Part shown: piece after piece, positions 4,267-56,227 of the stretch
Numbering within the stretch: the stretch's first letter is position 1
Layout: the number at the start of each line of letters is the position of its first letter
Assembly (NCBI GenBank): GCA_029008035.1
Contig: JAQXIY010000037.1
Span: forward strand, 1-56,734
DNA: 56,734 nucleotides
Source of the DNA: Lachnospiraceae bacterium
GTDB taxonomy: Bacteria; Bacillota; Clostridia; Lachnospirales; Lachnospiraceae
Direction: 5' to 3'
The notes under the pieces: generated by a model
Told to the model about the DNA's origin: nothing
Database searches by the model: none
The model's input: the letters and a program-made list of their open reading frames with translations, nothing else
Position numbers and translations under genes: made by a program

Positions 4267-4273
4267 TTCTTTT

Positions 4274-5026: not shown

Positions 5027-5095
5027 TATTTCTGTTAGACAGGAATACTATAAAATGACAAATTATGTTGTTTGTCGTATTATAATTCAATATGA

Positions 5096-5130: not shown

Positions 5131-5187
5131 TATATATTTTAATTTTGATGCTTTGTGAATACACTAAAGGACATAGAAACAACAGAC

Positions 5188-5210
5188 AACCTAAATATTG
5201 AATTTAGGTT
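5188..5210. promoter_or_regulatory. Perfect inverted repeat in the leader of the oleate hydratase gene
   Basis: AACCTAAAT-ATTGA-ATTTAGGTT. Confidence 0.55.
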
Positions 5211-5240
5211 AGAAAAGAAAAAGAAAAGGAGTGTGTTTTT

Positions 5241-7034
5241 ATGTACTATTCTTCAGGAACTTATGAAGCATTTGCAAAACCGGAGAAACCAGAGAGAGTT
5301 GATAGAAAATCAGCGTATATTATCGGAACAGGACTTGCAGGACTTTCCGCAGCATTTTATCTTGTAAGAGATGGGCAGGTAAAGGGTGATAGAATTCATC
5401 TTTTAGAGAAACTTGATCTTGCAGGTGGTAGCTGTGATGGTAGAAAAGATATTAGAAAGGGCTTCTACATGAGAGGTGGTAGAGAGATGGATAACCACTT
5501 TGAATGTATGTGGGATATGTTTCGAGATGTTCCGTCCATTGAGACTCCGGGAATTTCCGTACTTGACGAGTATTATTGGCTAAATAAGCATGATCCAAAC
5601 TATTCTCTCTGTCGAGCATCAGAAAAGTGTGGGCAGGATGCTCATACAGATAAAAAATTCACACTTGATAAGGAATCTGCAATGGCACTTTCCAAGTTAT
5701 TCATGACACCGGAAAAGGATCTCGAAGATAAGAAAATCAGTGAAGTTCTTCCTGATTCCTTTTGGAATACAAACTTCTGGCTTTATTGGCAGACAATGTT
5801 TGCATTTCAGAAATGGTCATCAGCTCTCGAGATGAAGAGATATTTATGCAGGTATTGTCATCATATTGATGGACTACCTGATTTTACAGCTCTTCGGTTT
5901 ACAAAATACAATCAGTATGAGAGCATGATTTTACCTCTTGTAAGATATCTCGAAAGTCACGGTGTAACGGTAGACTACGGAATAGATGTAAAAAATGTTG
6001 TTATCAAAGATGAAAATGGGAAGAAGGTTGCCACTCAGATTGTGTATGAGAAGGATGGAAAGACAGATACCATCGATCTCGTAGAGGATGATTTAGTATT
6101 CATCACGAATGGTTGCTGTACAGATACCTCTTGTTATGGCGATCAGAATACTGCGCCAGACTTAAGCAATGTAAAAAACGGCACAGGTGAGTCATGGGAT
6201 TTGTGGAAAAATATCGCTGCACAGGCTAAAAATGGAGAGTATGGTAATCCAGAAAAATTCTGTAGCGATTTCGAAGCGACTAACTGGATGAGTGCAACGG
6301 TTGAAACCAATGACGAAGAAATTATTCAGAAGATTATTGGTGTATGTAAGAGAGATCCAAGAGAAGGAAAGGTAACAACCGGTGGTATTGTTACAGTTAA
6401 GGACAGCACAGATAATTGGTATCTTTCATGGACAATTAACCGTCAGCCACAGTTCAAAGCACAGGATAAAAATACAGTTCTCATTTGGATTTATGCACTT
6501 ACTACCAATAAGGAAGGTAATTATGTAAAAAAAGCTATACGTGACTGTACCGGTGAAGAGGTATGCCGCGAGTGGCTGTATCATATTGGAGTACCAACAG
6601 ACAAGATTGATGATTGGGCAAAGAATCGTTGTAATACAACAACTTGTTTTATGCCTTATATTAATGCATTCTTCCAGCCTAGAAAGGAAGAAGACAGACC
6701 ACTTGTTGTTCCCAAGGGAGCAGTCAACTTTGCATTTCTTGGCCAGTTTGCTGAGACACCAAGAGATACAATTTTTACTACAGAGTATTCTATCCGTACC
6801 GGAATGGAAGCAGTATATACACTTCTTAACGTTGACAGAGGTGTTCCGGAGGTTTGGGGCTCTAAGTATGATGTAAGAGAATTGCTTCGCGCTGCATATT
6901 ATGCAATTGATAAGAAAACCCTTGATGAACTTCCGTTATCATTCAAGGAAAAGATACTTTTAAAGAAAGTACTTGAAGCTGTGAAAGGAACTGATGTAGA
7001 AATTCTGCTTAGGGAAAGTGGATTAATTAAATAA
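5241..7034 (+). CDS. ohyA: Oleate hydratase (myosin-cross-reactive antigen family)
   Basis: 'AYIIGTGLAGLSAAFYLVRDG', 'GGSCDG', 'GFYMRGGREMDNHFECMWDMFRDVPSIE' typical of the family. Confidence 0.93.
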   Translation: MYYSSGTYEAFAKPEKPERVDRKSAYIIGTGLAGLSAAFYLVRDGQVKGDRIHLLEKLDLAGGSCDGRKDIRKGFYMRGGREMDNHFECMWDMFRDVPSIETPGISVLDEYYWLNKHDPNYSLCRASEKCGQDAHTDKKFTLDKESAMALSKLFMTPEKDLEDKKISEVLPDSFWNTNFWLYWQTMFAFQKWSSALEMKRYLCRYCHHIDGLPDFTALRFTKYNQYESMILPLVRYLESHGVTVDYGIDVKNVVIKDENGKKVATQIVYEKDGKTDTIDLVEDDLVFITNGCCTDTSCYGDQNTAPDLSNVKNGTGESWDLWKNIAAQAKNGEYGNPEKFCSDFEATNWMSATVETNDEEIIQKIIGVCKRDPREGKVTTGGIVTVKDSTDNWYLSWTINRQPQFKAQDKNTVLIWIYALTTNKEGNYVKKAIRDCTGEEVCREWLYHIGVPTDKIDDWAKNRCNTTTCFMPYINAFFQPRKEEDRPLVVPKGAVNFAFLGQFAETPRDTIFTTEYSIRTGMEAVYTLLNVDRGVPEVWGSKYDVRELLRAAYYAIDKKTLDELPLSFKEKILLKKVLEAVKGTDVEILLRESGLIK

Positions 7035-7060
7035 AGACATCTATCGGTAATTATACAATG

Positions 7061-7090
7061 CTGCCGTATCACGTGAAGTTGATGCGGCAG
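7061..7090. terminator. Hairpin between convergent ohyA and kinase genes (no U-tract)
   Basis: CTGCCGTATCA-CGTGAAGT-TGATGCGGCAG, 11 bp with one G-U. Confidence 0.5.
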
Positions 7091-7120
7091 CTAAAAGTAT
7101 ATATGCCACACAAAAAATTG

Positions 7121-9109
7121 TTACAGTAAATACGTTCTCAAAATTTGCTCCAAAGAATCCACATCGATAGGTTTTTCCAAAAGATCTCTGAATCCTGCCT
7201 CTTTGTATCTTGATTTGGCATCGGATGTGATATTTGCAGTCAAAGCAATGATTGGTATGTCAGAAAAGGATGGGCCTAACTTCCCTATTTCTCTTAGGGT
7301 ATCTACACCACTCATCTCCGGCATGAGATCATCTAAGAGTATAAGATCATAACGGGATGCAGAAATCATAGAAAGACCTTCCTGCCCATCGGACGCAATA
7401 TCAACTAAGGCACCGGTGTCCTTTAACAATTCCTTTACAATGATAAGATTTGTTCTCATATCATCAATAACCAAGATACGATTGCCGGATAAGGAAAGAG
7501 ATGAAGGAGTTTTCGATTCTGTCTTATCATCCTCATTTTCTGAAATGGTTGCCGGTATTTCTAAATCAGGAAGGGACTGTATGATGCCAAAGGAGAAGGT
7601 GGAACCCTCACCTTTGATACTTTCCACTTCCAGCTTACTGTCCATCAATTCCAACAGGGATATTACAATACTCATGCCCAGACCGGAACCCGGGATGTCT
7701 GTATGTTTTTCCTCGTCAATACGCTCATAGGAGGCAAACAGCTTGTCCATATTTTCCGGGGCAATTCCAACTCCGGTATCCTTAACTTTTACAGATAATG
7801 TACCGGAGAGATTATCGGAGGAACTGTATTCCATGCTCAGGGTGACGGTTCCTTTCTTTGTATACTTGATGGCATTGGAAAGCAGGTTAATGATAATCTG
7901 CTTAATGCGCATACTGTCACCATAAAGCTGTTTTGGCATAGAAGAATCAATGTCAAACTCCAGTGACAAATCTTTTTCTCTTGCCAAAACGGACGTGATG
8001 GCAAAGACATCATTTACCATAGATGAAACGGAATATGCTTCCGGGAAAATCTCTATTTTTCCTGCTGTCAGTCGATTATAATCTAAAACGTCATTTACAA
8101 TATGCAAAAGATGTTTTCCGGCATTTTGGATGTCTTTGGCATAGGAGATAATGGAAGGATCTTTGGCCTCCCTTAAAATAATTTCGTCCATCCCCAAGAT
8201 AGCATTCAAAGGCGTCCTTATCTCGTGGGAAATAGATGAAATCATTCCGGACTGATCCGAATGTGCGCATTGCAATTCTTTGTTTTGTTGTTCAACGGCT
8301 GAAATAATATTTTGCTGTTGAAGAAGGCGCATCATATCCTTATGGATGTCTTCAACCGTGTAGACAAAGACGGGATTCTTACGGGAAAAATCAGATACCC
8401 GGGTGAAGGATAGACGAACCCAGATGTATTCTCCCTGTAAGTTTCTCATTTGAATCTCATAAGAAAAGCAGGGAGCCTTTTCTAACATATCAATGATGTG
8501 ATCCGGTTCTGAAACAGACAAAAAAGTAACCTTGTCTGAAGGAAGAAACATATCCGTAATCATAAAACGCCACTGAGAGTATGTAATGTCCAGATAATCG
8601 TGATGTTTTCCGGCCAGTTCGGAAATGTTGGTATTCTTACAAATATCATTTTTCAAATCCACCATCATAGAAAAGAGATATTTTTCTGAAAGAATGTCCA
8701 ACTTTTGTTGTCCGCTGATTTGCATTTCAAGATTTTCGCTGTTATCTAAAAAATATAGAGAAAAAATATTTTTGTTTATCTGAAGGATACGGTATTCCAG
8801 AGTGATTTTATCCTTTTCACCGGGAAGAATAATGTAATCGTGATAATTCCCCTGCTTAAACAGACTGATATCGATAAAACTGTTGTATTTGTCGTCTACG
8901 GAAGAATCATCCTCCATGGTTTGAAGGAAAATAGATTTATACAGGGTGGTAAGAGAGCCGGATTTTGGTATCTTGCCTGCAAAGAGTTCATCGGCCTTTG
9001 CAATTTCATATGTATTGTCATCTCCGTAAATCAATATAATAGCGTGACATTTGTTTATAAAAGAAGTATAGGATTGTCTGAGAAGCTTTCTTCGAACAAT
9101 TTCTTTCAT
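7121..9109 (-). CDS. Hybrid sensor histidine kinase (PAS-like, HisKA, HATPase, receiver)
   Basis: 'MISSISHEIRTPLNAILGMDEI', N box 'INLLSNAIKYTKKG', 'VKDTGVGIAPENM', 'GSGLGMSIV', REC 'LILLDDLMPEMSG'. ORF opens at 9151; the ATG at 9109 overlaps the upstream stop. Confidence 0.92.
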   Translation of the reverse strand: MKEIVRRKLLRQSYTSFINKCHAIILIYGDDNTYEIAKADELFAGKIPKSGSLTTLYKSIFLQTMEDDSSVDDKYNSFIDISLFKQGNYHDYIILPGEKDKITLEYRILQINKNIFSLYFLDNSENLEMQISGQQKLDILSEKYLFSMMVDLKNDICKNTNISELAGKHHDYLDITYSQWRFMITDMFLPSDKVTFLSVSEPDHIIDMLEKAPCFSYEIQMRNLQGEYIWVRLSFTRVSDFSRKNPVFVYTVEDIHKDMMRLLQQQNIISAVEQQNKELQCAHSDQSGMISSISHEIRTPLNAILGMDEIILREAKDPSIISYAKDIQNAGKHLLHIVNDVLDYNRLTAGKIEIFPEAYSVSSMVNDVFAITSVLAREKDLSLEFDIDSSMPKQLYGDSMRIKQIIINLLSNAIKYTKKGTVTLSMEYSSSDNLSGTLSVKVKDTGVGIAPENMDKLFASYERIDEEKHTDIPGSGLGMSIVISLLELMDSKLEVESIKGEGSTFSFGIIQSLPDLEIPATISENEDDKTESKTPSSLSLSGNRILVIDDMRTNLIIVKELLKDTGALVDIASDGQEGLSMISASRYDLILLDDLMPEMSGVDTLREIGKLGPSFSDIPIIALTANITSDAKSRYKEAGFRDLLEKPIDVDSLEQILRTYLL

Positions 9110-11031
9110 TATTTCATCCTTTCTTTTATTTGTGCAGCGGTTGTTTTGCAATGGCTGACAAAGTCTTTTGTATGGTTCTTAATATATTCTTTGTTGTCCA
9201 GTTTGGCAGCCATTTCAAGAATCTCAGCCTCTTCCCCGATTTGCATGTATCCCAATTGCTTAGAGGAACTTTTTATTCCATGGACTGTGGTACGATAGAG
9301 GGACAAATCAGTGTCAATCAGGGTAACTAACTTTTCCGATAGAGAAGAGAGCTCATTACAGTATAATTCCAAAACGGCATTTTGGTCATCCTCCGGAATA
9401 AAGATACCATCCTCATCATCAGAGGAAAATTCTTGAAATTCCACAGGCATAAGTGTTTCTATGATTCGCTTTAATGATGCCAAAGACAAGGGCTTGGACA
9501 GATAAGCGGAAAAGCCAAAATCAAGATAATCCGTCTGTAAATGATCTGTGCTGTCAGCGGTGACCAAAACAAGAGGTGTATCACATATCTGGCGAATAAT
9601 GTGTGCTGCATCTATTCCTCCCAATACCGGCATCATTTTATCCAAAAATATCAGCTGGTATGATTGATTGTTTACCGCAGCAATGGCTTGTTCTCCATTT
9701 TCCACAAAATCGATGGTAAATTGCCAGGGCTTCACTATGTTCTTAAATACTTCCTGATTCAAAAGTATATCTTCCGCTACCAATACTCTGGCCTTCGGAA
9801 ACAAAATGGATGGTTCTACATGTTCTTCTTGCAAAAGAGATGTGCCGATTTGCATAGATTGGTCATTGGCAAGAACAGAGGCATCTGCACCGGAGGAAAT
9901 CAGTATTTCGTCTACATAGGATAAAAGTTCTTTTCCGGATGCTTTGATACTTTCTATCGAATCGTCTATGTTAAGGTTGGATGTGTGATTGTGCAGAAGA
10001 CTGTCACACATGCCAATAATCACATTGAGAGGAGAGCGCATTTTGTGACTGATGAGAGACAAAAGGTTGTCTTTTTTTCGTGCCACTTCTTCCACAGATG
10101 TTTTCTCCTGGGACAGGGAAAGAATGGTTTGCTGTTCTTCTGTTACATCAGCCAGAGTAATGATATAGCCAAAAACTTTATCTCGGGAGACAATAGGCTT
10201 TTTGTAGCATCGGTAAAAATGATTCCCGTATTTTAATAATTCATCTTCAGGGGTAAAGTTCTGGAAATTCTGAAGATAAGATTCCGTGAAATGCTTCCTT
10301 GCCATGTTATTACCCTGTAAATATTGTTGTTCGCCGTCAAACAATATAGTAGGAACATTGTTGTTATGAAACAGATTTTCCTGAAGTTCCTGGGATAAAT
10401 CCATGAGATATCCCTTTCTTAACAAATAGAGAACAATGATGCAGGCAAAGATAAGACACATTGACATCACAGGCACACCGTAGGTGTGAAATTTGCGAAA
10501 CGGAATACCAATCACAGAAAACAAGAATGCCAAATAAACCATACCGGCTACGTATCGCTCTCGCTTGCTTTTGATGCGCCGGGTTAAGGAAAACAGAGTT
10601 GTGATAATAAGGATAATGGTACCGTATACATACACAAACAATAAGTACAGATAATGAAACATTGGATTGTCAGAAATGTGCTGCAATAAAATAAAAATAT
10701 TGCTGCAAATCAGAGTGACAAAACCAATGATTTCAATATAAAGAGGAATCTTTGCATGTGAAAAGTCAAAGATGTAATGTAATGCCAGATAAATCATCTG
10801 AACAAAGAGTAACTGTTCCAATATGATAAATACATGATTTTCATGGGTAAAGGCCAAAACAATCTCATAGAAGTCATAAATACAGATACCTGTCAACAGC
10901 ACGGGTAACAGGCGATGTGATTTAGAATACGCACCGGAATAAGCGTAGCACTGCATTGTAAAAAGCGCTACCACCAGACTGATAAATCGAATTGTTAAAA
11001 AGTCCATAAAGTTTCTCCCAAAAAGTGCCAA
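9109..11031 (-). CDS. Multi-TM phosphorelay protein: about 7 TM, PAS-like, HisKA-like, receiver and HPt-like, with no HATPase domain visible
   Basis: 'LLSLISHKMRSPLNVIIGMCDSLL', REC 'LIFLDKMMPVLGGID', HPt-like 'LYRTTVHGIKSSSKQLG'; no N/G boxes between HisKA and REC. Confidence 0.85.
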   Translation of the reverse strand: MALFGRNFMDFLTIRFISLVVALFTMQCYAYSGAYSKSHRLLPVLLTGICIYDFYEIVLAFTHENHVFIILEQLLFVQMIYLALHYIFDFSHAKIPLYIEIIGFVTLICSNIFILLQHISDNPMFHYLYLLFVYVYGTIILIITTLFSLTRRIKSKRERYVAGMVYLAFLFSVIGIPFRKFHTYGVPVMSMCLIFACIIVLYLLRKGYLMDLSQELQENLFHNNNVPTILFDGEQQYLQGNNMARKHFTESYLQNFQNFTPEDELLKYGNHFYRCYKKPIVSRDKVFGYIITLADVTEEQQTILSLSQEKTSVEEVARKKDNLLSLISHKMRSPLNVIIGMCDSLLHNHTSNLNIDDSIESIKASGKELLSYVDEILISSGADASVLANDQSMQIGTSLLQEEHVEPSILFPKARVLVAEDILLNQEVFKNIVKPWQFTIDFVENGEQAIAAVNNQSYQLIFLDKMMPVLGGIDAAHIIRQICDTPLVLVTADSTDHLQTDYLDFGFSAYLSKPLSLASLKRIIETLMPVEFQEFSSDDEDGIFIPEDDQNAVLELYCNELSSLSEKLVTLIDTDLSLYRTTVHGIKSSSKQLGYMQIGEEAEILEMAAKLDNKEYIKNHTKDFVSHCKTTAAQIKERMK

Positions 11032-11122
11032 AAAATGGCAAAATAACTAACAACAGTTTAGCATGATAAATGACCTTGTGCAAACAAATTGTAAATACAA
11101 AAGAAAGGCTTGAGACAAGTTA

Positions 11123-11159
11123 TATGACAGGTGTATAATACAAGTAATATTATGTCATA
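11123..11159. promoter_or_regulatory. Promoter and flanking inverted repeat (TATGACA...TGTCATA) of the 11176 gene
   Basis: TTGAGA-N18-TATAAT (-10 at 11134-11139) with TATGACA at 11123-11129 and TGTCATA at 11153-11159. Confidence 0.55.
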
Positions 11160-11175
11160 ACTATGGGGGATATCT

Positions 11176-12567
11176 ATGGATAATTTACAAGAGACAGGCA
11201 AAGAAAACGCAACATCCAAAGATTCTATTACCAGAGAAAAATTAGTAATAGGATTTGCCAGTGTATTTGAAGCATTGTTCTTATTGCTGGAACTGTATTT
11301 TATGATACATGCAGATGGTAATTTCACCATATTGATTGTCATTGCAATATGTATGGTTCTGGTGCTGTTTTTCCTTGTCATGGCAATTATTGATTTGACT
11401 CAGAAAATAAAAAACAGAGAGCGGCAGGAGTATGAGGACATCTACAAAGCTCAGAAGGCATCCTATCTTGCCACCAGAAAATATTTTGATGAGATAGGGG
11501 AACGGTTAAGTATCCTGGAACAGAACACCAATTTTCCCGCAGAGGATATCATCTCTGCTCAGAAAGCTATGGCCAAGGTTACTATCAGCAGAAGCAAAGA
11601 AAATGCAGAGGCGTTGATGAATGCCAATGATGAGTTGATACAGCGTGTGTTTGGTTTTGAGGAAAAGCTTTCAGACAGCAATCAGGAATTGTTACGTCAG
11701 CAGCAGGATTTTATCAAGCAGACCAAAGAAGATATGGAAGAGAATCAGAGACGTTTGCAAGACCAGTTCGATGCTCTTCAGAATACATTGCAGCAAATCC
11801 AGCAAGATAGAACTTTTGCAGAGCCGGTTTACCGGGAGAAGGCAATGGAGGATACCATGCCGGTTCAGGAGGAAGTATCCACGCTTGATGAGATGGAGGT
11901 TGAAGAAGAACTTCCTGTTTTAGAAGAGTTAGGAGTGGAAGAGGAACTTCCTGATGTAGATGAAATGCCGACGGAAGAAGAACTTCCTATTATAGATGAC
12001 ATGGATATTGAGGAAGAGCCGACGCCTTTGAATGAGGCAGAGGAAGAGTTGCCTGCCCTGGACGAGATAGATGTTGAGGGAGAGATACCTACTCTGGATG
12101 AGATTCCTGTAGAAGATGAATTACCTTCATTAGATGATATAAGCTTGGATGATCTTCCTAATTTAGATGATATGGAATTAGAAGAATTGCCGGTTATGGA
12201 TGAAGTACCGACGGAAGAGATGCCTGAGATGGTGGAGATGCCGGACTTGTCAGATCCCAACAAACAATTGTCTGCTGACGAAATAGCAGCACTTTTTGCC
12301 AATACCGGAAGCATAGCTGAGCCGGAGCCCACGCCGGAACCTGAGCCGGAACCGGAAGAAGAGAATCCGCCAATGCCGGATTTGTCCGACCCGAATAAAC
12401 AGTTATCCGCGGATGAGATAGCGGCTCTGTTTGCAAATGCAGGAGATATCGCCGAACCTGAGCCAGAACCGGAACCGGAGGAAGAGAAGCCACCGATGCC
12501 GGATTTGTCCGACCCGAACAAAACATTATCTCCGGATGAGATAGCAGCCTTGTTTGCAAACATGTAA
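11176..12567 (+). CDS. Membrane-anchored coiled-coil protein with acidic Pro/Glu/Leu region and three C-terminal MPDLSDPNKxLSxDEIAALFAN repeats
   Basis: Two TM segments, coiled coil, 'EELP' repeats, three 23-aa repeats. Confidence 0.85.
   Translation: MDNLQETGKENATSKDSITREKLVIGFASVFEALFLLLELYFMIHADGNFTILIVIAICMVLVLFFLVMAIIDLTQKIKNRERQEYEDIYKAQKASYLATRKYFDEIGERLSILEQNTNFPAEDIISAQKAMAKVTISRSKENAEALMNANDELIQRVFGFEEKLSDSNQELLRQQQDFIKQTKEDMEENQRRLQDQFDALQNTLQQIQQDRTFAEPVYREKAMEDTMPVQEEVSTLDEMEVEEELPVLEELGVEEELPDVDEMPTEEELPIIDDMDIEEEPTPLNEAEEELPALDEIDVEGEIPTLDEIPVEDELPSLDDISLDDLPNLDDMELEELPVMDEVPTEEMPEMVEMPDLSDPNKQLSADEIAALFANTGSIAEPEPTPEPEPEPEEENPPMPDLSDPNKQLSADEIAALFANAGDIAEPEPEPEPEEEKPPMPDLSDPNKTLSPDEIAALFANM
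12238..12564 (+). repeat. Three coding repeats of the LSADEIAALFAN unit (starting 12238, 12373, 12496)
   Basis: Protein: MPDLSDPNKQLSADEIAALFANT / ...ANA / MPDLSDPNKTLSPDEIAALFANM. Confidence 0.9.
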
Positions 12568-12680
12568 AAATCTCCCAGATAATTCTTAAAAATTTTTAAA
12601 AAATTGCAAAAAAAATCGTAAAAAACACTTGCTTTTTACGGGAAGATGTTGTATTCTATTCCTTGTCGTGAAAAGCATAT

Positions 12681-12753
12681 CCGCGACTAGCTCAGCTGGC
12701 AGAGCACCTGACTCTTAATCAGGGTGTCCAGGGTTCGAACCCCTGGTCGCGGA
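12681..12753 (+). tRNA. tRNA-Lys (anticodon CTT)
   Basis: Acceptor CCGCGAC/GTCGCGG, anticodon arm CCTGA-CTCTTAA-TCAGG, T arm CAGGG-TTCGAAC-CCCTG, discriminator A. Confidence 0.96.
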
Positions 12754-12759
12754 CTTGGA

Positions 12760-12800
12760 AATAACTTGGACAGATTTCGCGCTGTCTGGGTTATTTTTTT
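12760..12800 (+). terminator. Intrinsic terminator after tRNA-Lys
   Basis: AATAACTTGGACAG / CTGTCTGGGTTATT (14 bp with G-U pairs) then T-tract. Confidence 0.8.
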
Positions 12801-12874
12801 GTCTATTTTTATTCTTCTTTCAAAACCCATGATATAATTGAACATAGATAGTTATATATAATGAAGGAGAAGGT

Positions 12875-14896
12875 ATGTCTATGGAAGAAATTTTATATGG
12901 TGTGGCGTATTATGACGAATATATGCCCTATGACCGATTGGAAGAAGATATTCGTATGATGAAAAGGGCGGGAATTAACACGGTGAGGATTGCGGAATCC
13001 ACATGGAGTACCTGCGAACCCCAGGAGGGAGTGTTCGATTTTTCTCATGTAATTCGGGTGTTGGATATCTGTGAGAGAGAACATATCAATGTCATTGTGG
13101 GAACGCCCACCTATGCGGTGCCCACATGGTTGGTGAAGGCCCATCCGGAAGTGCTGGCAACAACAAAACAGGGGAAGGGTATCTATGGGGCCAGACAGAT
13201 AATGGACATTACTAACCCGGATTACTTGTTTTATGGAGAGCGGGTAATACGAGAATTGATGAAGGTGTCTGCCCATAGAGATTGTGTGATTGGTTTTCAG
13301 ATTGACAATGAGACAAAATATTATGGCACTGCCGGTGAACATGTACAGCAGCGGTTTGTTACCTACTTGCGGGACAAGTTCTGTGATGATTTGGATTTGA
13401 TGAATCAGGAATTTGGCTTGGATTACTGGAGCAATCGCATCAATTCCTGGGAGGATTTTCCGGATGTGAGGGGTACCATCAATGGAAGTCTTGGGGCAGA
13501 ATTTGAGAAATTTCAGCGGACACTGGTGGACGACTTCTTGAGCTGGCAGGCGGATATTGTTGGGGAATACAAGAGGGAAGAGCAATTTATCACCCATAAC
13601 TTTGATTTTGACTGGCGGGGATATTCCTATGGTGTGCAGCCGGATGTAAACCATTCTTTGGCGTCAAAGGCTGTGACTATTGCGGGATGCGATATCTATC
13701 ACCCGAATCAGGATGATTTAACCGGAGCAGAAATTGCTTTTGGCGGGGATATGACCAGATCCTTAAAACAGGATAACTATCTGGTATTAGAGACGGAAGC
13801 CCAGGGATTTCCGTGTTGGACACCATACAAAGGTCAGCTAAGACTGTGTGCATACAGCCATTTAGCGTCCGGAGCCAACAGTGTGATGTACTGGCATTGG
13901 CATTCGATACATAATTCCTACGAAACATATTGGAAAGGTCTGCTCAGTCATGATTTTCAGGAAAATGAAACATATCGGGAAGCATGTATTGTGGGAAATG
14001 AGCTGAAATCCATAGGTTCTAAACTTATCAACTTGAAGAAAAAGAATCAGGTGGCTATTATGGTGAGCAATGAAGCTCTTACGGCTTTACGTTGGTTCGG
14101 CATTCAGGCTACCTCCGGAGATAATGGGAATGTATGTTATAACGATGTATTGCGATGGATATACGATGCACTATTTCGCATGAATGTGGAGTGTGACTTC
14201 GTATGGCCACAGTCAGAGAATTTGTCCCGGTATAAGGTGATTGTTGCTCCGGCGCTTTATGCCGTGCCTGATGCGACCTTGTATCGATTAAAGGACTTTG
14301 TGGCGGATGGTGGAACGCTCATTGCCACATTTAAGACAGGATTTGCCAATGATAATATTAAGGTTAGCACCTTGGAACAACCAAGAATCATAGGGGATGC
14401 CCTTGGTGTGTCATACAACCAATTTACATTTCCCAGAAATGTTGGTCTCGCTGGTAGGCTTTTCACAGATCATACAACCGGTGGAACAGCAGAAGTGTTT
14501 ATGGAGCTTTTGGAGGTAAAGACAGCAGAAGTGTTAGCATCCTATAAACATACAAATTGGGGAACATATGCAGCAATTACCAAAAATGAATATGGCAGGG
14601 GATTTGGATACTATCTTGGCTGTATGACAGATGAGAAAACCCTTGAACTTTTGCTGCGAGAAGCACTTACACAGGCTGAGGTAGACATGATAGATGTGAT
14701 GGCGCCTGTGATTGTCCGGTCCGGTGTTAACGAGATGGGCAATACACTTAGATATTTTTTAAACTATTCTCCTGAGACAAAATGTGTAGAAAATGTTTTT
14801 GGAAATGGTCAGGATGTGATTGCCGGAAAAGAGATAAAGAAGAAGGATGTCATAACCATTGCACCTTGGGATCTGGCGATTGTGGAGTTCCTGTAG
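12875..14896 (+). CDS. GH42 family beta-galactosidase
   Basis: 'GVAYYDEYMPYDRLEEDIRMMKRAGINTVRIAESTWSTCEPQEGVFDF'; 'GFQIDNET'. Confidence 0.93.
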   Translation: MSMEEILYGVAYYDEYMPYDRLEEDIRMMKRAGINTVRIAESTWSTCEPQEGVFDFSHVIRVLDICEREHINVIVGTPTYAVPTWLVKAHPEVLATTKQGKGIYGARQIMDITNPDYLFYGERVIRELMKVSAHRDCVIGFQIDNETKYYGTAGEHVQQRFVTYLRDKFCDDLDLMNQEFGLDYWSNRINSWEDFPDVRGTINGSLGAEFEKFQRTLVDDFLSWQADIVGEYKREEQFITHNFDFDWRGYSYGVQPDVNHSLASKAVTIAGCDIYHPNQDDLTGAEIAFGGDMTRSLKQDNYLVLETEAQGFPCWTPYKGQLRLCAYSHLASGANSVMYWHWHSIHNSYETYWKGLLSHDFQENETYREACIVGNELKSIGSKLINLKKKNQVAIMVSNEALTALRWFGIQATSGDNGNVCYNDVLRWIYDALFRMNVECDFVWPQSENLSRYKVIVAPALYAVPDATLYRLKDFVADGGTLIATFKTGFANDNIKVSTLEQPRIIGDALGVSYNQFTFPRNVGLAGRLFTDHTTGGTAEVFMELLEVKTAEVLASYKHTNWGTYAAITKNEYGRGFGYYLGCMTDEKTLELLLREALTQAEVDMIDVMAPVIVRSGVNEMGNTLRYFLNYSPETKCVENVFGNGQDVIAGKEIKKKDVITIAPWDLAIVEFL

Positions 14897-14992
14897 AGAA
14901 AAAGAAAAATATGAAACAATCTCGTTGATATTTATATAGTAAAAATTTTTCCCAATGATAAAATGAAAGTAGTTTTATTATGGGAGGTTACT

Positions 14993-16588
14993 ATGGAGAA
15001 TATTGCGGAAATAATTAAAAACGGAAAAGCTCTTTTGGGAATTGAATTTGGTTCCACCAGAATCAAAGCGGTTCTTATTGACGAGAATCATAATCCAATT
15101 GCCAGCGGGGACTACACCTGGGAGAATCGTCTGGAGAATGGTTTTTGGACCTACCATCAGGATGAGATTTGGAAGGGCTTACAGGAAAGCTACCAAAATC
15201 TGAAAGAAGATGTACAAAAGAAGTACGGCGTGAAGCTGACCAAGATTGCAGCTATGGGATTTAGTGCCATGATGCACGGCTATCTTGCCTTTGGCAAGGA
15301 GGATGAGTTGCTGGTTCCTTTCCGCACCTGGCGCAATAGTACCACCGGGCAGGCGGCGAAGGAATTGAGTCGGTTGTTTGCATACAATATTCCTGAGAGA
15401 TGGAGTATCTCTCATTTGTATCAGGCCATTTTGAATCAAGAAGAGCACGTGCCTGATATTACCTTCTTCACCACATTGGCAGGTTATATTCACTGGCAGT
15501 TGACAGGGGAGAAGGTTATCGGTGTTGGCGATGCATCGGGAATGTTCCCAATCGATCCCAAGACCAAGTCTTATGACCAATCTATGTTAGATAAATTTGC
15601 AGATTTGATTCAGGATAAGGGCTATGACTGGACGTTGCCGGAGATTTTACCTGAGATTCGTCTGGCAGGGGAGTCGGCAGGTGTTCTTACTAAGGAAGGT
15701 GCGTTGCTTTTGGATCCGTCAGGAGAACTGGAGCCGGGCACACCGATTGCTCCACCGGAAGGAGATGCGGGAACCGGCATGGTTGCCACCAACAGTGTAA
15801 AGCAGCGTACAGGCAATGTATCTGCCGGAACGTCTGTATTTGCAATGATTGTTCTGGAGAATGAATTGAAGAGCTACTATCCGGAAATCGATATGGTTAC
15901 TACCCCGGACGGAAGTCTTGTAGCTATGGTTCATGCCAATAACTGCACCAGCGATTTGAATGCCTGGGTTGGCTTGTGCAAGGAAGTGCTTACAAGCTTT
16001 GGAGTAGATGTTTCCGGCGATGAGTTGTATGGCACGTTATATCACAAAGCATTGGAAGCGGACCCGGATTGCGGTGGGCTTCTCTCCTACGGATTTTTAT
16101 CCGGCGAGAATATTATGAACTGCGAAGAGGGAAGGCCAATGTTTGTACGTTTGCCGGATAGCAAGTTTAATTTAGCTAATTTCATGCGCTCTCATCTCTA
16201 TGCAAGCTTTGGGGCGCTTAAGGTTGGAATGGATTTACTCCTTCAGAAGGAGCAGGTAGGCATTGATACAATCTATGGACATGGAGGTATCTTTAAGACA
16301 AAAGGAGTTGCTCAGAATTTCTTGGCAGCAGCTATTGATACACCTGTTTCTGTCATGGCAACTGCAGGCGAGGGTGGCCCTTGGGGTATGGCTGTATTGG
16401 CAGCCTATCTTGTTCATAAGAATGAGGGTGAATCTTTAGAGGATTATTTGGCAGAAAAAGTATTTGCAGATGCTAAGGGAGATACTGTGGACCCAAATCC
16501 GGAAGACGTAAAAGGTTTTGCTGCCTATATTGATAGGTTTAAGAATTCTATCTCTGCAGAGCAGGCAGCTGTTGCAGATTTCAAGTAG
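14993..16588 (+). CDS. FGGY-family carbohydrate kinase, probable L-ribulokinase
   Basis: '[47 protein letters not shown]'; adjacent to araD; GGGAGG SD before ATG at 14993. Confidence 0.82.
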
Positions 16589-16614
16589 TCTACAGATTCA
16601 GAAAGGACGTTAAG

Positions 16615-17313
16615 ATGTTAGAGCAATTAAAACAAGAAGTATATGAGGCAAATATGCTTTTGCCAAAATATCATTTAGTTACATTCACATGGGGTAATGT
16701 CAGCGGCATTGACAGAGAGTCAGGCTTGTTTGTCATTAAGCCAAGCGGTGTGGAATATGATAAGCTGCAACCGGAAGATATGGTGGTAGTGGACTTAGAT
16801 GGCAATAAGGTGGAGGGAAGATATAACCCTTCTTCCGATACAGAGACCCATCGGATTTTGTATCAGCGATTCCCGGAGGTGGGAGGCATTGTGCACACCC
16901 ATTCCACATGGGCAACCAGTTGGGCTCAGGCGGGAAGAAATATCCCCTGCTATGGTACCACCCATGCAGATTACATCTATCAGGATGTTCCCTGTGTGAG
17001 AAATCTCACCAAGGAAGAAATCGACGAGGGGTATGAGGTGAACACGGGGGTGCTTATAGCGGACGAGTTCGATGCCAAGAAGATTGACTATATAGCGACA
17101 CCTGCTGTTCTCTGTAAGAATCACGGCCCATTTACCTGGGGCAAGGATGCTCACGAGGCAGTTCACAATGCCGTGGTATTAGAGGAAGTCGCAAAAATGG
17201 CAGCAAATTGCGAGATGATCAATCCACAGGTTGCGCCTGCACCTCAAGTGCTTATGGATAAGCACTACTATCGCAAGCACGGTGCAAACGCATACTATGG
17301 TCAGAATAATTGA
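16615..17313 (+). CDS. araD: L-ribulose-5-phosphate 4-epimerase
   Basis: '[40 protein letters not shown]', '[18 protein letters not shown]'. Confidence 0.93.
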
Positions 17314-17414
17314 TCCAGATCTTTTGCAACACATTTTAGAGATTTTGTGATGCAGCAGATACATTTCCTGTTTTTACAAAATCGATAGAAATATGGGAGA
17401 AAAAAACAACACTT

Positions 17415-17458
17415 CATAAAAATAAGAGAAGGCAGGTGTGCTTTCTCTTATTTTATGT
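17415..17458. terminator. Bidirectional terminator between araD and trmB
   Basis: CATAAAAATAAGAGAA ... TTCTCTTATTTTATG. Confidence 0.7.
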
Positions 17459-17483
17459 AAATGATGCAATTGTGTTACAGGTT

Positions 17484-18140
17484 TCAGGAGCATTTGCCGG
17501 CAATCAGTTTGTAGATGGGATTGCCCTTGGAGGAAAATTTCTCCTCATACTCTGTCATAATATTGCCCTGATTCATTGTCTCATCCTGGTGCAAATCATA
17601 AGTAATTTCAAGAATCTCCCAGCTGGGGGAGTTCTTTATTTCCTCCACCGAAAAATCAAACAAGCCACGATTGTCTGTCTTAAATTCTATGTGGCCTTCA
17701 GGAGCCAAAATCTCATAATATTTTTCCAAGAAATTAGAAGAGGTAAGGCGTCGTTTGGCGTGACGGTCTTTTGGCCAGGGATCACTGAAATTCAGATAGA
17801 TGCGATCCACTTCGCCGGTGGCAAAAATCTCATGAATATTTTCTGCGTTAAAGCAAAGAAATCGAAGATTATCTACAGGCTCTACTTCCATTTTTTGAAC
17901 TGCTCTAAGAAGCACACTTGTATATTTTTCGATTCCCAAATAATTAATATTAGGATTTTGATTGGCCATGCCCATAATAAATTGGCCTTTTCCCATACCT
18001 ATCTCAATATGAAGAGGTTGCTTAGTGGGGAAAATCTTCGCCCATCGGCCTTTATAACTATCCGATTTCTGAACACAGTATTCGCTATTTTCAATGGCCT
18101 CATCGGCTCCCGGTATATTACGTAATCTCATTTTATTCAC
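17484..18140 (-). CDS. trmB: tRNA (guanine-N7-)-methyltransferase
   Basis: 'PLHIEIGMGKGQFIMGMA', 'NFSDPWPKDRHAKRRLTSSNFLEKY'. Confidence 0.93.
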   Translation of the reverse strand: MNKMRLRNIPGADEAIENSEYCVQKSDSYKGRWAKIFPTKQPLHIEIGMGKGQFIMGMANQNPNINYLGIEKYTSVLLRAVQKMEVEPVDNLRFLCFNAENIHEIFATGEVDRIYLNFSDPWPKDRHAKRRLTSSNFLEKYYEILAPEGHIEFKTDNRGLFDFSVEEIKNSPSWEILEITYDLHQDETMNQGNIMTEYEEKFSSKGNPIYKLIAGKCS

Positions 18141-18193
18141 CCTCTATATAGACTAAAATATAATTTCTTATCGTTCATAGGATTGTACAGGCT

Positions 18194-18240
18194 CATCCTT
18201 TCTCGTTCCGGGTACTTGTGAGCGTGCCCGGCATGGGATG
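18194..18240 (+). other. Nested inverted repeat (possible structured leader RNA) between trmB and dacF
   Basis: CATCC(...CCGGGTAC-TTGTGAGC-GTGCCCGG...)GGATG; 8-bp inner stem with one G-U. Confidence 0.5.
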
Positions 18241-18411
18241 GATGATGCTATACACTCCCTACTAATCCGTTACGGGGTATATTTTACAATAAAAAGGGGA
18301 GGAATAAAAGCCAAAAAAGAAAGAAATCTGTTGCATAGAAAAAACAGAGAGATTATACTAAAAATGTATGTTTTTTGGGAACATAAGGAAAAAATAGAAA
18401 GAGTTTATTAT

Positions 18412-19905
18412 ATGAAGAAAATAAAAAAATGGATTGCAATGACTATGGCGGGACTGATAACCACCATGGGAATTATGGGCACAGCAAGTATAGATGTCAA
18501 GGCTGAGGCCTATTGGCCCAGTAATGTAAGCGTAGATTCCGGTGCGGCTGTTGTCATGGAAGTAGAGACAGGGACTATTCTTTACGAGAAGAATATGAAT
18601 CAGTCCTATTATCCCGCCAGCATCACAAAGGTGATGACGGCATTGTTGGCACTGGAAAACTGTGATTTGGATGAAATCATTACCTTTTCAGAGACGGCAG
18701 TATATGAGAACGAAGGGGATACATCCCACATTGCCAGAGAAGTGGGAGAAGAGATGACTATGGAATCCGCTCTATATGGTATGATGCTGGAATCTGCCAA
18801 TGAATGTGCCTGGGCCATTGGGGAACATGTGGGTGGAACCATGGATGAATTCATCAATATGATGAATGCCAAAGCAAAAGAGCTGGGATGTACAGGTACT
18901 CATTTTAATAACCCCAACGGACTTCCTGACCCGGATCACTATGTGACAGCTCATGACATGGCTTTGATTGCCCAGGCTGCATATAAGATACCCAAGTTTC
19001 AGGAACTGTGTGGAACTCGCGCATATACCATTCCGGCGGACAACAAGAAAGAGGCTTATAATTGTAACAATACCCATGGAATGATTAGTAATCACCGAGG
19101 TTCTGAACATTTGTATGAATATGCGGTGGGAGGTAAGACGGGATATACGGATGAGGCGGGTAATACTCTCGTGACGTATGCCAAGAAGGACGGAATGACC
19201 CTTCTCTGCGTGGTGCTTAACAGCAAAAATCCGGCACACTATAATGACACGGAGAGATTGTTTGAGTATTGTTTCTGTAATTTCTCCGTAAAAAAGGTGG
19301 CAGATTATGTGAATCTTCCCGACTTAGAGGACGTCAAAGCGGTAGGATCTTTAAGTGATAAAATTGATTTGATTCGCATTGATCCATCCGGTGTGGTGGT
19401 TCTGCCGAACACGGCTTCTTTTACAGATGCGGAGGCAAAGGTATCACCGGCCAAAAAGGGAAGCAAGGCAGTGGCAAATGTGGAGTACACCTATGCTGGG
19501 AAAAATGTGGGCGGAGCAGATATAATTTATGAGAAGTCAAAGACATCCTCCTACCCATTCCACAACCTCTCGGAAGAAGAGGGGGGCACTAAGTTAAAAT
19601 ATTTCCGAATAGATTTTAAGACGATTTTGTTGGTGCTGTTCATAGCAGCATTGTTGCTGCTGGTGGGATATGTGATTCACTTGCAATCCGGAAAAATTCT
19701 TTTGTACATGCATCGCCATACCAGAAAAAAAGGTCCTGACAGTGGAAAGTACCGCAGAATTCATCGAAGAAAATCAACACCCGCTTCCAGAAAACAGGCA
19801 AGTCGAAGCCGTAATACACCGAGAAGCATGAGTGGAAATCAAAAGACAGGGAAACCCATTCAAAGGACAAGACGAAGTCGTACAAATCAGAGAAAACGAC
19901 ATTAA
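18412..19905 (+). CDS. D-alanyl-D-alanine carboxypeptidase (DacF/PBP5-type) with C-terminal TM and Arg/Lys-rich tail
   Basis: 'YPASITKVMTALLALE' (SxxK), 'SANECA', 'KTGYTDEAG'; ORF opens at 18238, signal-peptide start MKKIKKW at 18412. Confidence 0.9.
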   Translation: MKKIKKWIAMTMAGLITTMGIMGTASIDVKAEAYWPSNVSVDSGAAVVMEVETGTILYEKNMNQSYYPASITKVMTALLALENCDLDEIITFSETAVYENEGDTSHIAREVGEEMTMESALYGMMLESANECAWAIGEHVGGTMDEFINMMNAKAKELGCTGTHFNNPNGLPDPDHYVTAHDMALIAQAAYKIPKFQELCGTRAYTIPADNKKEAYNCNNTHGMISNHRGSEHLYEYAVGGKTGYTDEAGNTLVTYAKKDGMTLLCVVLNSKNPAHYNDTERLFEYCFCNFSVKKVADYVNLPDLEDVKAVGSLSDKIDLIRIDPSGVVVLPNTASFTDAEAKVSPAKKGSKAVANVEYTYAGKNVGGADIIYEKSKTSSYPFHNLSEEEGGTKLKYFRIDFKTILLVLFIAALLLLVGYVIHLQSGKILLYMHRHTRKKGPDSGKYRRIHRRKSTPASRKQASRSRNTPRSMSGNQKTGKPIQRTRRSRTNQRKRH

Positions 19906-51411: not shown

Positions 51412-51597
<186 letters not shown>

Positions 51598-51771
51598 TCA
51601 TAATATTATACAGTCGTTACTGTACTCTCATAATATATCATCTATTTTTTAAAAACAAGTATTTAATTCGATACATGGACGAATAGGAAAAATAAACTGC
51701 TGAAAAGGAATTGCAAAAGAACAAAAAGAGAATTATAATATCACCATCAAACCAGCAAGGAGGAAGAATCA

Positions 51772-51978
51772 GTGGCAAGAGTAAGTAAATCTACTATGAT
51801 TGGTGAATTGTTACAGATTGATGCAGAAGTGGCACCAATCTTATTGAATATCGGAATGCATTGTCTCGGATGTCCATCATCACAGATGGAGACCATCGAG
51901 GAAGCTGCTATGGTACATGGCATTGATGCAGACGATTTGGTTGAAGAAATCAACAATTTCTTAGCTACCAGAGGTTAG
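51772..51978 (+). CDS. DUF1858 family small protein (GTG start)
   Basis: 'MIGELLQIDAEVAPILLNIGMHCLGCPSSQMETIEEAAMVHGID'. Confidence 0.92.
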   Translation: MARVSKSTMIGELLQIDAEVAPILLNIGMHCLGCPSSQMETIEEAAMVHGIDADDLVEEINNFLATRG

Positions 51979-52028: not shown

Positions 52029-52775
52029 TTATAACTGCGCCAGAGTGGAAAGAGCATCTGAACCGAGAATGGTTTGATAATGCTCCTTGTAGTAGGAGAG
52101 TTGCCCTACGGTAAAATCCCCCTGGGAACCATATTCTGTGAGAATATTGCAGGTCTTGTTGAACTCTTCAGGAGTGTGCTGTGATTTGCTTACCACAAGA
52201 TAAAATCCATTGTCACGAGGATTCTTGAACAAGGCATTCTCCCCGTGATAAAATCCATTCAATACATGGGCCAGACGAATCAAATCGTCCAAGCTCTTGA
52301 AGGAGAACATCTTGGTAATATCAACCGGAATGGTAACACCTGTTGAAGGTGAGGCGGATGGGTCTGCCTTCTGCTGTAATGATGCGGCAGCTTCCTTGGC
52401 CCGGTGAAACAATTCAATGATGTCATTGGCAGAGGAGGTGGAAGGTGACATAATGTCCTCATACTCCTCCATATCTTCAGGATCTGTATCTTCAGAAAAG
52501 CGGGAAAACCGGGTGTCTAACTCCTCCGGATATTCCACTTTTGTCACAATCAACAAAATAGAATCTGTGGTAAGGGGTACGGCTTCAATCATCAAAGGAA
52601 TGTCTTCTGCATCAAAACCGAATTCGTAAGATGCCTGTTCCATCAACTCCCGGAATAGAGACTTTGCCTTTTCCGTACCATATGCTAACTCACTGAGTTT
52701 GATATGTCTGCTATCTAAATCTTCTCTGGTAAGGGTGCAGCGAATTTGGTTATCATTTACTTTTTCAATTTTCAT
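52029..52775 (-). CDS. mecA: Adaptor protein MecA-like
   Basis: 'MKIEKVNDNQIRCTLTREDLDSRHIKLSELAYGTEKAKSLFRELMEQASYEFGFD'. Confidence 0.9.
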   Translation of the reverse strand: MKIEKVNDNQIRCTLTREDLDSRHIKLSELAYGTEKAKSLFRELMEQASYEFGFDAEDIPLMIEAVPLTTDSILLIVTKVEYPEELDTRFSRFSEDTDPEDMEEYEDIMSPSTSSANDIIELFHRAKEAAASLQQKADPSASPSTGVTIPVDITKMFSFKSLDDLIRLAHVLNGFYHGENALFKNPRDNGFYLVVSKSQHTPEEFNKTCNILTEYGSQGDFTVGQLSYYKEHYQTILGSDALSTLAQL

Positions 52776-52983: not shown

Positions 52984-54270
52984 ATGTCATATATTTTTGC
53001 TGACAGGTACCGCGTGGTGAAGACTTTGTATCAATCAACAGCTACCAGGGTACTGCTAGTCAAGCCACAAGAGAGAGATGAACTGCTGGTTGTGAAATGT
53101 ATCAGGAAGCAGAACACATCTACAGACATTTTTCTTGAAGCAAATCTACTACAGGATATGAGACATCCTGGCATCCCCATTTTATATGAGATAATAGAAG
53201 ACGAGACAACCTTGTATTTGATACAGGAGTATGTCTATGGAGATTCGTTAGATCATTATTTGCTTTATCATCAACATATTTCCCAAGAAACGTTCCTACA
53301 ATTTGCAATTCAAATCTGTGAGATTATTCAGTATTTACATTCTCACCAACCTGATCCCATATTATATCTGGATATGAAACCAAGTCATATTATAGTATGT
53401 GGAGAACGGGTGAAATTAATCGATTTTGGAATTGCAAACTTTCTTTCCATTTCGGGAAAAAATATCCACAAATTTGGAACAAAAAAATATGCGGCGCCGG
53501 AGCAGATGACCAATGAAGTATTGGATAAGAGAACTGATGTATACGGTGTCGGAAAAGTCTTAGCACATATGCTGACCTATATGGAACCGAGAGAAGCCGT
53601 CAGGTATTTTCCAATTGTTTGGAGAGCCACAAGAAAAAGACGGTGTCGGCGGACAGAGAGTATTTCTCGCTTAAAGCAGCAGCTTATAGACAAAGGAATC
53701 AAGAAAAATCGTAAACACAAGAACAAAAAGCATCTCAAAAAAGTAATTGCAGTGGTTGGCAGCGACAGGGGTGTGGGATGTACCCATATCGCCATTGCTC
53801 TTGTAAATTATTTAAACCAGGCGGGGTTAAACGCATATTATCGAAATTGCTCAGAGCAGAGGGTATTGGAACAGATGGCTCAGCAGGAGATGATATCTGT
53901 ACAGAAGGATGGCTTTATATATCACGAATCTTTTCGCGGGGTAATGTACTATGATCCTCGGGAAACAACAAATCCTCCCGAAGGAATACAGATCATCGAC
54001 TGTGGTTGTAATGATTGTCCGAAAAACGCAGATGCAACTATCTATGTCTGCGGCGGAAGACTTTGGCAGAAGCCCAAGAATCCAACATGGAAATGGGGAA
54101 AAGACGACATTGTACTCTGCAATTTCTTTGCTGGATATCAAGCGAGAAAATTTGCCAGAGAACAGATGACAAGAGTTTATTTCTATCCCTATCAAAAGGA
54201 CCCGTTTGTTGTCAACACAGCAATTCGACGATTGTTTTCCATTTTCTGCAAATCTTTTTTTAATAAATAA
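52984..54270 (+). CDS. Serine/threonine protein kinase-like domain fused to a degenerate ParA/MinD-like P-loop domain
   Basis: Kinase: 'LLVVKCI', 'LYLDMKPSHIIVC', 'LIDFGIA', 'KKYAAPEQM'; C-terminal 'VIAVVGSDRGVGCTHIAIALVNYLNQAGL' and 'IQIIDCG'. Confidence 0.85.
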   Translation: MSYIFADRYRVVKTLYQSTATRVLLVKPQERDELLVVKCIRKQNTSTDIFLEANLLQDMRHPGIPILYEIIEDETTLYLIQEYVYGDSLDHYLLYHQHISQETFLQFAIQICEIIQYLHSHQPDPILYLDMKPSHIIVCGERVKLIDFGIANFLSISGKNIHKFGTKKYAAPEQMTNEVLDKRTDVYGVGKVLAHMLTYMEPREAVRYFPIVWRATRKRRCRRTESISRLKQQLIDKGIKKNRKHKNKKHLKKVIAVVGSDRGVGCTHIAIALVNYLNQAGLNAYYRNCSEQRVLEQMAQQEMISVQKDGFIYHESFRGVMYYDPRETTNPPEGIQIIDCGCNDCPKNADATIYVCGGRLWQKPKNPTWKWGKDDIVLCNFFAGYQARKFAREQMTRVYFYPYQKDPFVVNTAIRRLFSIFCKSFFNK

Positions 54271-54423
54271 GAATATATGGGACATTGGCAAACGAAACAT
54301 ATAAAGGATATGGAAACATAAAAAACAACGAATAGAATGGTAGCTGGGAAAGGAGAGTTACTCACAGAGAAATCAATATGCTATACTTTTGTTGAAAAAT
54401 CAACCGTTACGAAAAAAGCAAAG

Positions 54424-54447
54424 GAGGTCCGAAAGGGCCTCTTTTTA
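54424..54447 (+). terminator. Intrinsic terminator
   Basis: GAGGTCC-GAAA-GGGCCTC then TTTTT. Confidence 0.75.
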
Positions 54448-54508
54448 TTTGCAAAAGATATGATATACTATGGAGTAGACAAAAGAACCTTAGACAGAAG
54501 GAGGAAAC

Positions 54509-56227
54509 ATGGAGAAGAGAAGACGACGGAGTCATGTACCAAAGTTTATATATATTTTGGCAGTGCTGGGTGTGGCGCTACTTGTTGTGGGCACAGTGTT
54601 TATGATTAAGAGGTATACGCCCACCAAGGAGCATATGAGCCTGGAAGATTACTTCGCCCTGACAGAGGAAAATGAGGCGGCTGTGATTATCAATGGGGAA
54701 TACAAAGAGGTTTCCGACACGGAGGACAATATTCATGCCGTCCGCAGCGACCAAGGTTATTATTTGCAGATAGACTTTCTGAAGAAAGAGTTGGACGATG
54801 GATATGTGTATGACAGTACCGAAGGAGTGTTGCGCTATGCCACGGATAAGGAAGTGGTGAGTGCATCCCTAAACAGCCCGAACTACACAGTTGGTAAACA
54901 ACGGGAAACTTTGGACAAGGATGTGGTGATTTCCCAGGATGGAACTTACTTTGTTGCGCTGAGTTTTGTGGAACTCTTTACGGATATCACTAGTACAACC
55001 TGTGAGGGACCCAACCGTATTGTGATTGAGACGGCAGGATTTACCATCCAGAAGGCAACCCTCAAAAAAGACGTTCCGCTCCGCCGCTTTGGAGGAGTGA
55101 AGAGTAAGATTTTGAAGGATGCGGTCAAGGGAGAAGAGGTAGGTATCCTGGAGGACTACGGAAAGTGGAGCTATGTCATCACAAAGGACGGGGTATTGGC
55201 ATGTGTGCAGAACCGAAAGATGGAGATTACCCACAAGGCTACCACAGAGGCACGCTTGCCCCAGAGAGAGTATGAACATTATAAGATGGATGAAACCGTC
55301 TCCCTGGGCTGGCATCAGGTCACAGGCACGGCAGCCAACAGCACGGTGGAAAAGGTGCTGGCAGACAGCGATATCAATGTGATTTCTCCCACATGGTTTT
55401 ATATTAATGACAATGAGGGAAATATAAAGAATCTGGCATCGGCAGATTATGTGTCCTACTGCCATGACAGAAATGTTCAGGTGTGGGGATTGGTGAGCAA
55501 TCTGGAAAACAAAAATGTGGATACCACGGTGGTGTTGAACACCACCTCTTCCAGAGACAATCTGGTAAACAGCCTGATTACCGCGGCCATCACGTATGAC
55601 TTGGACGGTATCAATGTGGATATGGAGGCTCTCAGCGCATATGCAAAGGATGGATACATCCAGTTTATCAAGGAGCTGTCCATTAAGTGTAAAAAGAATG
55701 ATATTGTCTTGTCGGTAGACAACTATGTGCCATCATCCTCCACGGCATTTTACAATCGAAGTGTTCAGGCGGACTATGCAGACTACATTATTATTATGGC
55801 ATACGACGAACACTACTCCGGTAGTGACGAGGCCGGCTCCGTGGCCTCCATCGGATTTGTAAAACAGGGCGTCAAGGATACTTTAGAGGAGGTTCCGGCA
55901 GAACAGATCATTTTGGGTATGCCGTTCTATGCCAGAGTTTGGGCTGTGAAAGGGGATTCCATCAGCAGCAAGGCATATGGTATGGAGGATTTGGAAGAAT
56001 TTTTGAAACGAAATGATGTGACGGTGACCTGGTCTGAAGTGGACGGGCAGAATTACGGAGAGTTCGTATCAGAAGACACCACCTATATGACATGGGTGGA
56101 GGATGCAACATCCTTAGGCAAGAAGTTAGAGGTGATGAAGTCAGAAAATCTGGCAGGAGCAGCCTTTTGGAAATTGGGCTTTGAAAAGCCCGGTATTTGG
56201 GCTACCATACGCCAATACACAAAATAA
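54509..56227 (+). CDS. GH18-family glycoside hydrolase, membrane-anchored, with SH3-like region
   Basis: N-terminal TM; 'YDLDGINVDMEAL' (DxxDxDxE-type active site), 'ADYIIIMAYDEHYSGSDEAG', 'ILGMPFYARVW'. Confidence 0.9.
   Translation: MEKRRRRSHVPKFIYILAVLGVALLVVGTVFMIKRYTPTKEHMSLEDYFALTEENEAAVIINGEYKEVSDTEDNIHAVRSDQGYYLQIDFLKKELDDGYVYDSTEGVLRYATDKEVVSASLNSPNYTVGKQRETLDKDVVISQDGTYFVALSFVELFTDITSTTCEGPNRIVIETAGFTIQKATLKKDVPLRRFGGVKSKILKDAVKGEEVGILEDYGKWSYVITKDGVLACVQNRKMEITHKATTEARLPQREYEHYKMDETVSLGWHQVTGTAANSTVEKVLADSDINVISPTWFYINDNEGNIKNLASADYVSYCHDRNVQVWGLVSNLENKNVDTTVVLNTTSSRDNLVNSLITAAITYDLDGINVDMEALSAYAKDGYIQFIKELSIKCKKNDIVLSVDNYVPSSSTAFYNRSVQADYADYIIIMAYDEHYSGSDEAGSVASIGFVKQGVKDTLEEVPAEQIILGMPFYARVWAVKGDSISSKAYGMEDLEEFLKRNDVTVTWSEVDGQNYGEFVSEDTTYMTWVEDATSLGKKLEVMKSENLAGAAFWKLGFEKPGIWATIRQYTK

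Follow-up and report, generated by a model that had tools for sequence, protein, structure and literature searches.

A Ser/Thr kinase fused to a TadZ/CpaE-like domain in Lachnospiraceae and its probable link to Tad-type pilus machines

Results

The window, meaning the whole analysed stretch of 56,734 nucleotides from a Lachnospiraceae bacterium, encodes at 52984–54270 (+) an uninterrupted open reading frame of 428 amino acids, in which a Ser/Thr kinase domain is joined by a Lys-rich linker to a predicted TadZ-like SIMIBI domain. This is the two-part architecture that the original prediction had described. The gene, its parts and its surroundings are as follows:

52029..52775 (-): divergent mecA-like adaptor gene, neighbour in 39/42 loci of the family
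52984..53673 (+): protein kinase domain, residues 1–230 (PF00069, 124 bits)
53365..53388 (+): catalytic loop YLDMKPSH, residues 128–135; D130 invariant, Mg-binding Asn changed to His as in a whole clade
53422..53430 (+): DFG, residues 147–149; D147 in 42/42
53674..53739 (+): Lys/Arg-rich linker, residues 231–252, with the lowest constraint of the gene
53740..54267 (+): predicted C-terminal SIMIBI (ParA/MinD/TadZ-like) domain, residues 253–428 (alignment A1; hhalign)
53758..53787 (+): lysine-less P-loop GSDRGVGCTH, residues 259–268; Cys at the lysine position, lysine missing family-wide
53992..54006 (+): Walker-B-like IIDCG, residues 337–341; Asp 39/40, Gly 40/40
54271..54508 (+): gap of 238 bp, where relatives hold a second SIMIBI gene, a SAF/CpaB-like gene and a small conserved ORF
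54509..56227 (+): downstream GH18 cell-wall enzyme-like gene, neighbour in 41/42 loci

The kinase half fits the Hanks-type profile, as PF00069 matches it with 124.3 bits (E 7e-36, cut-off 31.7); the best NCBIfam match of the protein, NF033483, reaches 101 bits against a cut-off of 450, and for the C-terminal half no Pfam family reaches its cut-off. All motifs named in the original prediction could be located, namely K38 in VVK, E52, D130, D147, APE at 171–173 and the P-loop listed above, together with a glycine loop (LYQSTATRVLLV) that contains zero glycine and has none at positions 16, 18 and 21. Two hallmarks of Hanks-type kinases are therefore missing, the glycine-rich loop and the Asn of DxKPxN, which is His135 here. 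Promoter and terminator scans around the gene gave counts near those of shuffled sequence. As the same fusion occurs in an independent MAG (L001) with 49–50% identity, it is not an assembly artefact. The search across Lachnospiraceae that the original prediction had proposed found it in at least 55 of 200 sampled genomes, nearly all from separate genera, with conserved mecA and GH18 flanks, and the fusion of the window is one member of a Clostridia-wide family.

Between the fusion and the GH18 gene most of the 42 loci hold a stand-alone SIMIBI gene, while 12 encode a membrane protein with a SAF domain (in L036 PF08666 passes its cut-off) and 20 a small ORF. No remnant of any of the three was found in the 238-bp gap of the window, and a tblastn search for the lost second SIMIBI gene gave none either. 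The small proteins preceding GH18 form a family of 65–100 amino acids with the motif YMRDYV...LKEIRFDKV and no Pfam match (L036 10965–11165, L044 11245–11454 and 18 more loci). On the other side, a divergent ferredoxin + DUF1858-like small gene adjoins mecA at 51412–51978 and is retained in several relatives (clusters c12 and c6).

To take a closer look at the C-terminal half we compared profiles, and at this level its proposed assignment to the P-loop proteins of the ParA/MinD kind holds. The profile of the domain (A1) aligns with the stand-alone protein of about 200 amino acids encoded alongside in most relatives (hhalign E 4e-31) and with the C-terminal half of receiver-type proteins from other Clostridia (E 3e-32). 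Compared with the window's own ParA it scores 75% (E 2e-5), and the profile of the receiver-type relatives (A4) 94% (E 1e-7). Among solved structures, A1, A2 and A4 match ParA, Soj, BcsQ, Wzc and SRP, each marginally, and the PDB profile matches of A2 are all SIMIBI except one AAA entry; a phmmer search of the PDB with the single domain returned nothing relevant. AlphaFold gave a pLDDT of 48.6 for the domain with three alignment rows and of 37 for the full-length protein with only the window and L001 rows, values too low to build on. In Foldseek the low-confidence domain model reached a best E of 8.5e-3 with none below 0.001, the top matches being mostly SIMIBI and TadZ from Eubacterium rectale (3FKQ) appearing at rank 38 among these weak matches. 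Judged by its profiles the C-terminal half is a SIMIBI (ParA/MinD/TadZ-like) domain, similar to ParA/MinD proteins and lacking the lysine of the deviant Walker A motif KGGxGKT.

The genomic context of the relatives also bears out the analogy to CpaE/TadZ. In another Clostridia family (f10) four loci (L090, L093, L101 and L103) carry an operon with the kinase fusion as first gene, followed by a SAF gene, two ParA-like genes and a gene for a 620-aa ATPase, and then by genes for a membrane protein of 676 aa and for small proteins resembling pilins. The ATPase conserves GQQGSGKTT, is related to CpaF (hhalign 95.7%, E 9e-9) and has TadA as its best NCBIfam model, below cut-off; the match of the membrane platform protein to TadB is marginal (E 8e-4). 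The SAF protein of these operons is orthologous to the one beside the Lachnospiraceae kinase (hhalign E 1e-54). In L125 (G162) the same operon is headed, in the same slot, by a protein with a receiver-like domain in front of the same SIMIBI domain, so kinase and receiver-like domain have been swapped. A receiver-type member also heads SAF/CpaB, CpaE-like ATPase, CpaF and TadB-like genes in family f14 (L086 and L089). The remark that no pilus genes are visible nearby is thus true of the window and does not extend to the relatives: as members of this C-terminal family lie within Tad-type operons at these seven loci, their absence is a property of the lineage and not of the family.

We call the N-terminus of these relatives receiver-like from its sequence pattern and a published analogue, and the term stays an inference because its profile matched no response regulator in the PDB. 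Other members of the family adjoin conjugation genes (L094, L097 and L098). In L085 (2091–6647) WXG100 genes lie directly upstream of a receiver-type SIMIBI protein, which resembles TsfV of T7SSf as published (PMC11217815). An 896-aa protein in L126 (G039, 11635–14325) heads the same ATPase operon; its N-terminus is receiver-like, and it also contains a long coiled coil and two stretches resembling SIMIBI proteins. In one stretch of L111 (G046, 4105–19901) Tad genes lie together with a receiver-type SIMIBI gene and VirB4-like genes for conjugation, and the ORF of an intron-type reverse transcriptase apparently interrupts an ATPase gene there.

In Lachnospiraceae the f10 operon is split, with ParA-like, ATPase, platform and pilin-like genes forming an unlinked cluster elsewhere in the genome. 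The ATPase was found in 27 and the SAF gene in 26 of the 200 genomes, 24 of them having both (Fisher 1e-25; the genomes are mostly one per genus and not phylogenetically independent). The SIMIBI family is present in 25/27 genomes with the ATPase and in 36/173 of the others (Fisher 4e-13, again for genomes that are not phylogenetically independent), so that the ATPase-bearing genomes are nested in the set carrying the family, and this association holds in every genome-size stratum. Phylogeny is accounted for in these statistics at the genus level only, independent contrasts being too few. About 30 genera including that of the window have the fusion without the cognate ATPase. In the genome of the window, which is 85% complete, the cognate ATPase, the SAF gene and the second SIMIBI gene are absent and no pilus gene is linked to the fusion.

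Such lineages could suggest that the kinase-SIMIBI protein and its stand-alone SIMIBI neighbour form a signalling module of their own, a polarity or envelope regulator now unrelated to pili. The catalytic Lys, Asp and Asp are intact in the fusions of these 30 or so genera, the constant place between mecA and the GH18 cell-wall enzyme fits such a module, and the stand-alone SIMIBI gene shows no association with the ATPase (p 0.4, with gene calling undercounting the stand-alone gene). However, this position may be mere synteny, the link to pili is direct in f10 and alongside the SAF genes, and the window itself has no partner SIMIBI gene, and we therefore regard a module independent of pili as rather unlikely.

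Canonical Tad genes (CpaF) occur in 196/200 Lachnospiraceae genomes, and because of this near-universal presence a dependence of canonical Tad on the fusion cannot be shown. Contig C104 (L105) of the window's genome encodes CpaF and TadB of a canonical Tad cluster as well as a separate TadZ; its contig C50 (L124) carries TadE-like genes and an FHA protein, whose gene takes the place that DUF6382-FHA has in L109. A further contig, C90 (L106, 1404–10487), carries a second CpaF-like ATPase of 345 aa, a 462-aa membrane protein and small membrane proteins, as well as a protein of 1646 aa, the N-terminal part of which looks like a subtilisin-type protease. We considered this cluster as the missing partner system and rejected it, as its small proteins and platform match nothing in the f10 set.

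The original prediction had taken the unusual residues as a sign that enzymatic activity was lost or altered. In an alignment of 42 family members (41 or 40 at some C-terminal positions) K38 is found in 41/42 and E52, D130 and D147 each in 42/42, and the HRD position usually reads YLD. At residue 132, 28 members carry Lys and 14 carry Gln; at residue 135, Asn is present in 24 and His in 18, and the two changes never occur in one protein. Glycines 16 and 18 are kept in 31/42 and are missing in the subclade of the window and a few other lineages. The Walker A lysine occurs in 0/41 members and in 0/10 receiver-type relatives. In the family its place is taken by T, V, A or C, and T and H come next in 39 members each, which gives the pattern G-x-G-[TVAC]-T-H; the Walker-B-like D339 (39/40) and G341 (40/40) are nearly invariant. 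Since the loss of the lysine is family-wide and most of the other changes are shared by whole clades, the odd residues are mostly clade traits and not damage, and the missing P-loop lysine is ancestral in this group. Homologues with canonical residues, which had been named as a possible hint at sequence error or a decayed gene, do exist for DxKPxN (5/5 f10 fusions and 24/59 tabulated Lachnospiraceae kinases) and for GKT there are none; neither error nor decay is the explanation. A missing lysine is also a poor guide to lost activity, as E. rectale TadZ is described in PMC10482377, citing Xu 2012, as retaining ATPase activity with both P-loop lysines gone. By analogy the loss of the lysine in the fusion need not mean the loss of ATP binding.

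Could the gene nevertheless be a remnant left after pilus loss, a slowly decaying pseudokinase? The cognate ATPase, SAF and second SIMIBI genes are absent, the glycine loop is lost, and the copy of the congener G066 has no C-terminal domain at all and a faster-evolving kinase part. This copy (L035 7976–8791) stops at 271 aa; an EKDYIYHGS-like stretch downstream may be a remnant, seen by eye and not significant in tblastn. However, the fusion is full length in 4/5 genomes of the genus, the window's own included, with G066 being the fifth. Compared with the congener G488, the whole gene has a dN/dS of 0.24 at an unsaturated dS of 0.70; the SIMIBI domain has the lowest value (0.18), followed by the kinase (0.27) and the linker (0.40). 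Purifying selection acts on both halves, which also speaks against the residue changes as a mark of lost function, and the family is old and under selection. In the tree the branch of the window is short (0.18 against 0.90 for the truncated G066), and His135 is common to genera that retain the ATPase (G076, G150, G110 and G157). All this makes slow decay improbable.

A possible causal link between the loss of the ATPase and the change in the catalytic loop was rejected. The raw Fisher value is 4e-5, but there are only 5 changes against 8 on the tree, independent pairs are non-significant and His135 is present in ATPase-positive genomes; for these reasons we do not claim the change as a result of ATPase loss.

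Discussion

Taken together we propose, with a probability of roughly 0.6, that the product of the gene organises a Tad-type pilus (secretion) machine in the manner of TadZ/CpaE, with a Ser/Thr kinase standing in for the usual N-terminal receiver-like domain, and that it is an orphan in the lineage of the window. That it is most likely an orphan there follows from the ATPase, SAF/CpaB-like and partner SIMIBI genes being gone while the fusion is kept under selection. For the mechanism, the SIMIBI domain with its lysine-less P-loop would be expected to dimerise and to dock on the inner-membrane motor like CpaE, whose dimers, in a model for Caulobacter, surround the CpaF motor as a ring and make contacts via their receiver domains (PMC13170226). 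The kinase domain would then occupy the position of the receiver at the motor and, if catalytically active, control assembly by phosphorylating a partner in the motor or envelope. If the kinase holds this position, its substrate should belong to the motor or the envelope, and the phospho-mark could be recognised by FHA proteins. In the lineage of the window the orphan fusion might act on the canonical Tad pilus, which is present there, as is an FHA protein that could serve as phospho-reader; alternatively, it might have been retained to regulate the envelope.

A bolder extension, which we put forward only tentatively, would be a new class of Tad-like pilus/secretion machine in Clostridia that has a kinase inside the TadZ/CpaE motor ring and whose assembly is set by phosphorylation in place of a receiver-like domain; in many Lachnospiraceae this ring kinase would have outlived its machine and been re-used on another envelope system. 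To our knowledge, the switch-on of Tad/type IVc pilus assembly and the job of the atypical receiver domain of TadZ/CpaE are open questions. As a kinase naturally replaces the receiver in the same operon slot, and the two would be expected to serve one function in different ways, the role of the receiver domain becomes testable. Our findings also indicate that common gut bacteria have a split pilus system that is still uncharacterised. The fusion itself offers a testable example of a phosphorylation switch that either forms part of a pilus motor or remains from one.

Comparison with known systems

Three known systems come closest to the fusion. The PASTA kinases PknB and PrkC share its Hanks-type kinase fold, but the fusion has no PASTA domains and NF033483 stays far under its cut-off. 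TsfV of T7SSf, a variant of type VII secretion (PMC11217815), combines a TadZ-like receiver and an ATPase domain within a secretion cluster in which kinases and DUF6382-FHA proteins recur; in contrast to the fusion its ATPase bears a receiver and not a kinase, and it is accompanied by T7SS genes instead of pilus genes. TadZ from E. rectale (3FKQ) and CpaE from Caulobacter, like the fusion, consist of an N-terminal regulatory domain and a SIMIBI ATPase domain without the P-loop lysine(s) and belong to Tad operon genes, in the case of the fusion those of its relatives. They differ in that the fusion has a Ser/Thr kinase and no receiver where their receiver domain stands, in its Walker variant GxG[TVAC]TH and in its cognate ATPase, which is of a divergent CpaF type with 530–630 aa. 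The canonical TadZ of the window's genome (L105) is a separate gene, to which the profile match is poor for A1 (7.5%) and moderate for A2 (81.5%). We therefore do not claim a TadZ proper, as the receiver domain and the Walker lysine are missing, although E. rectale TadZ too is without the lysines; the fusion is a variant of the TadZ/CpaE kind that most plausibly works like TadZ, with the kinase as its regulatory domain.
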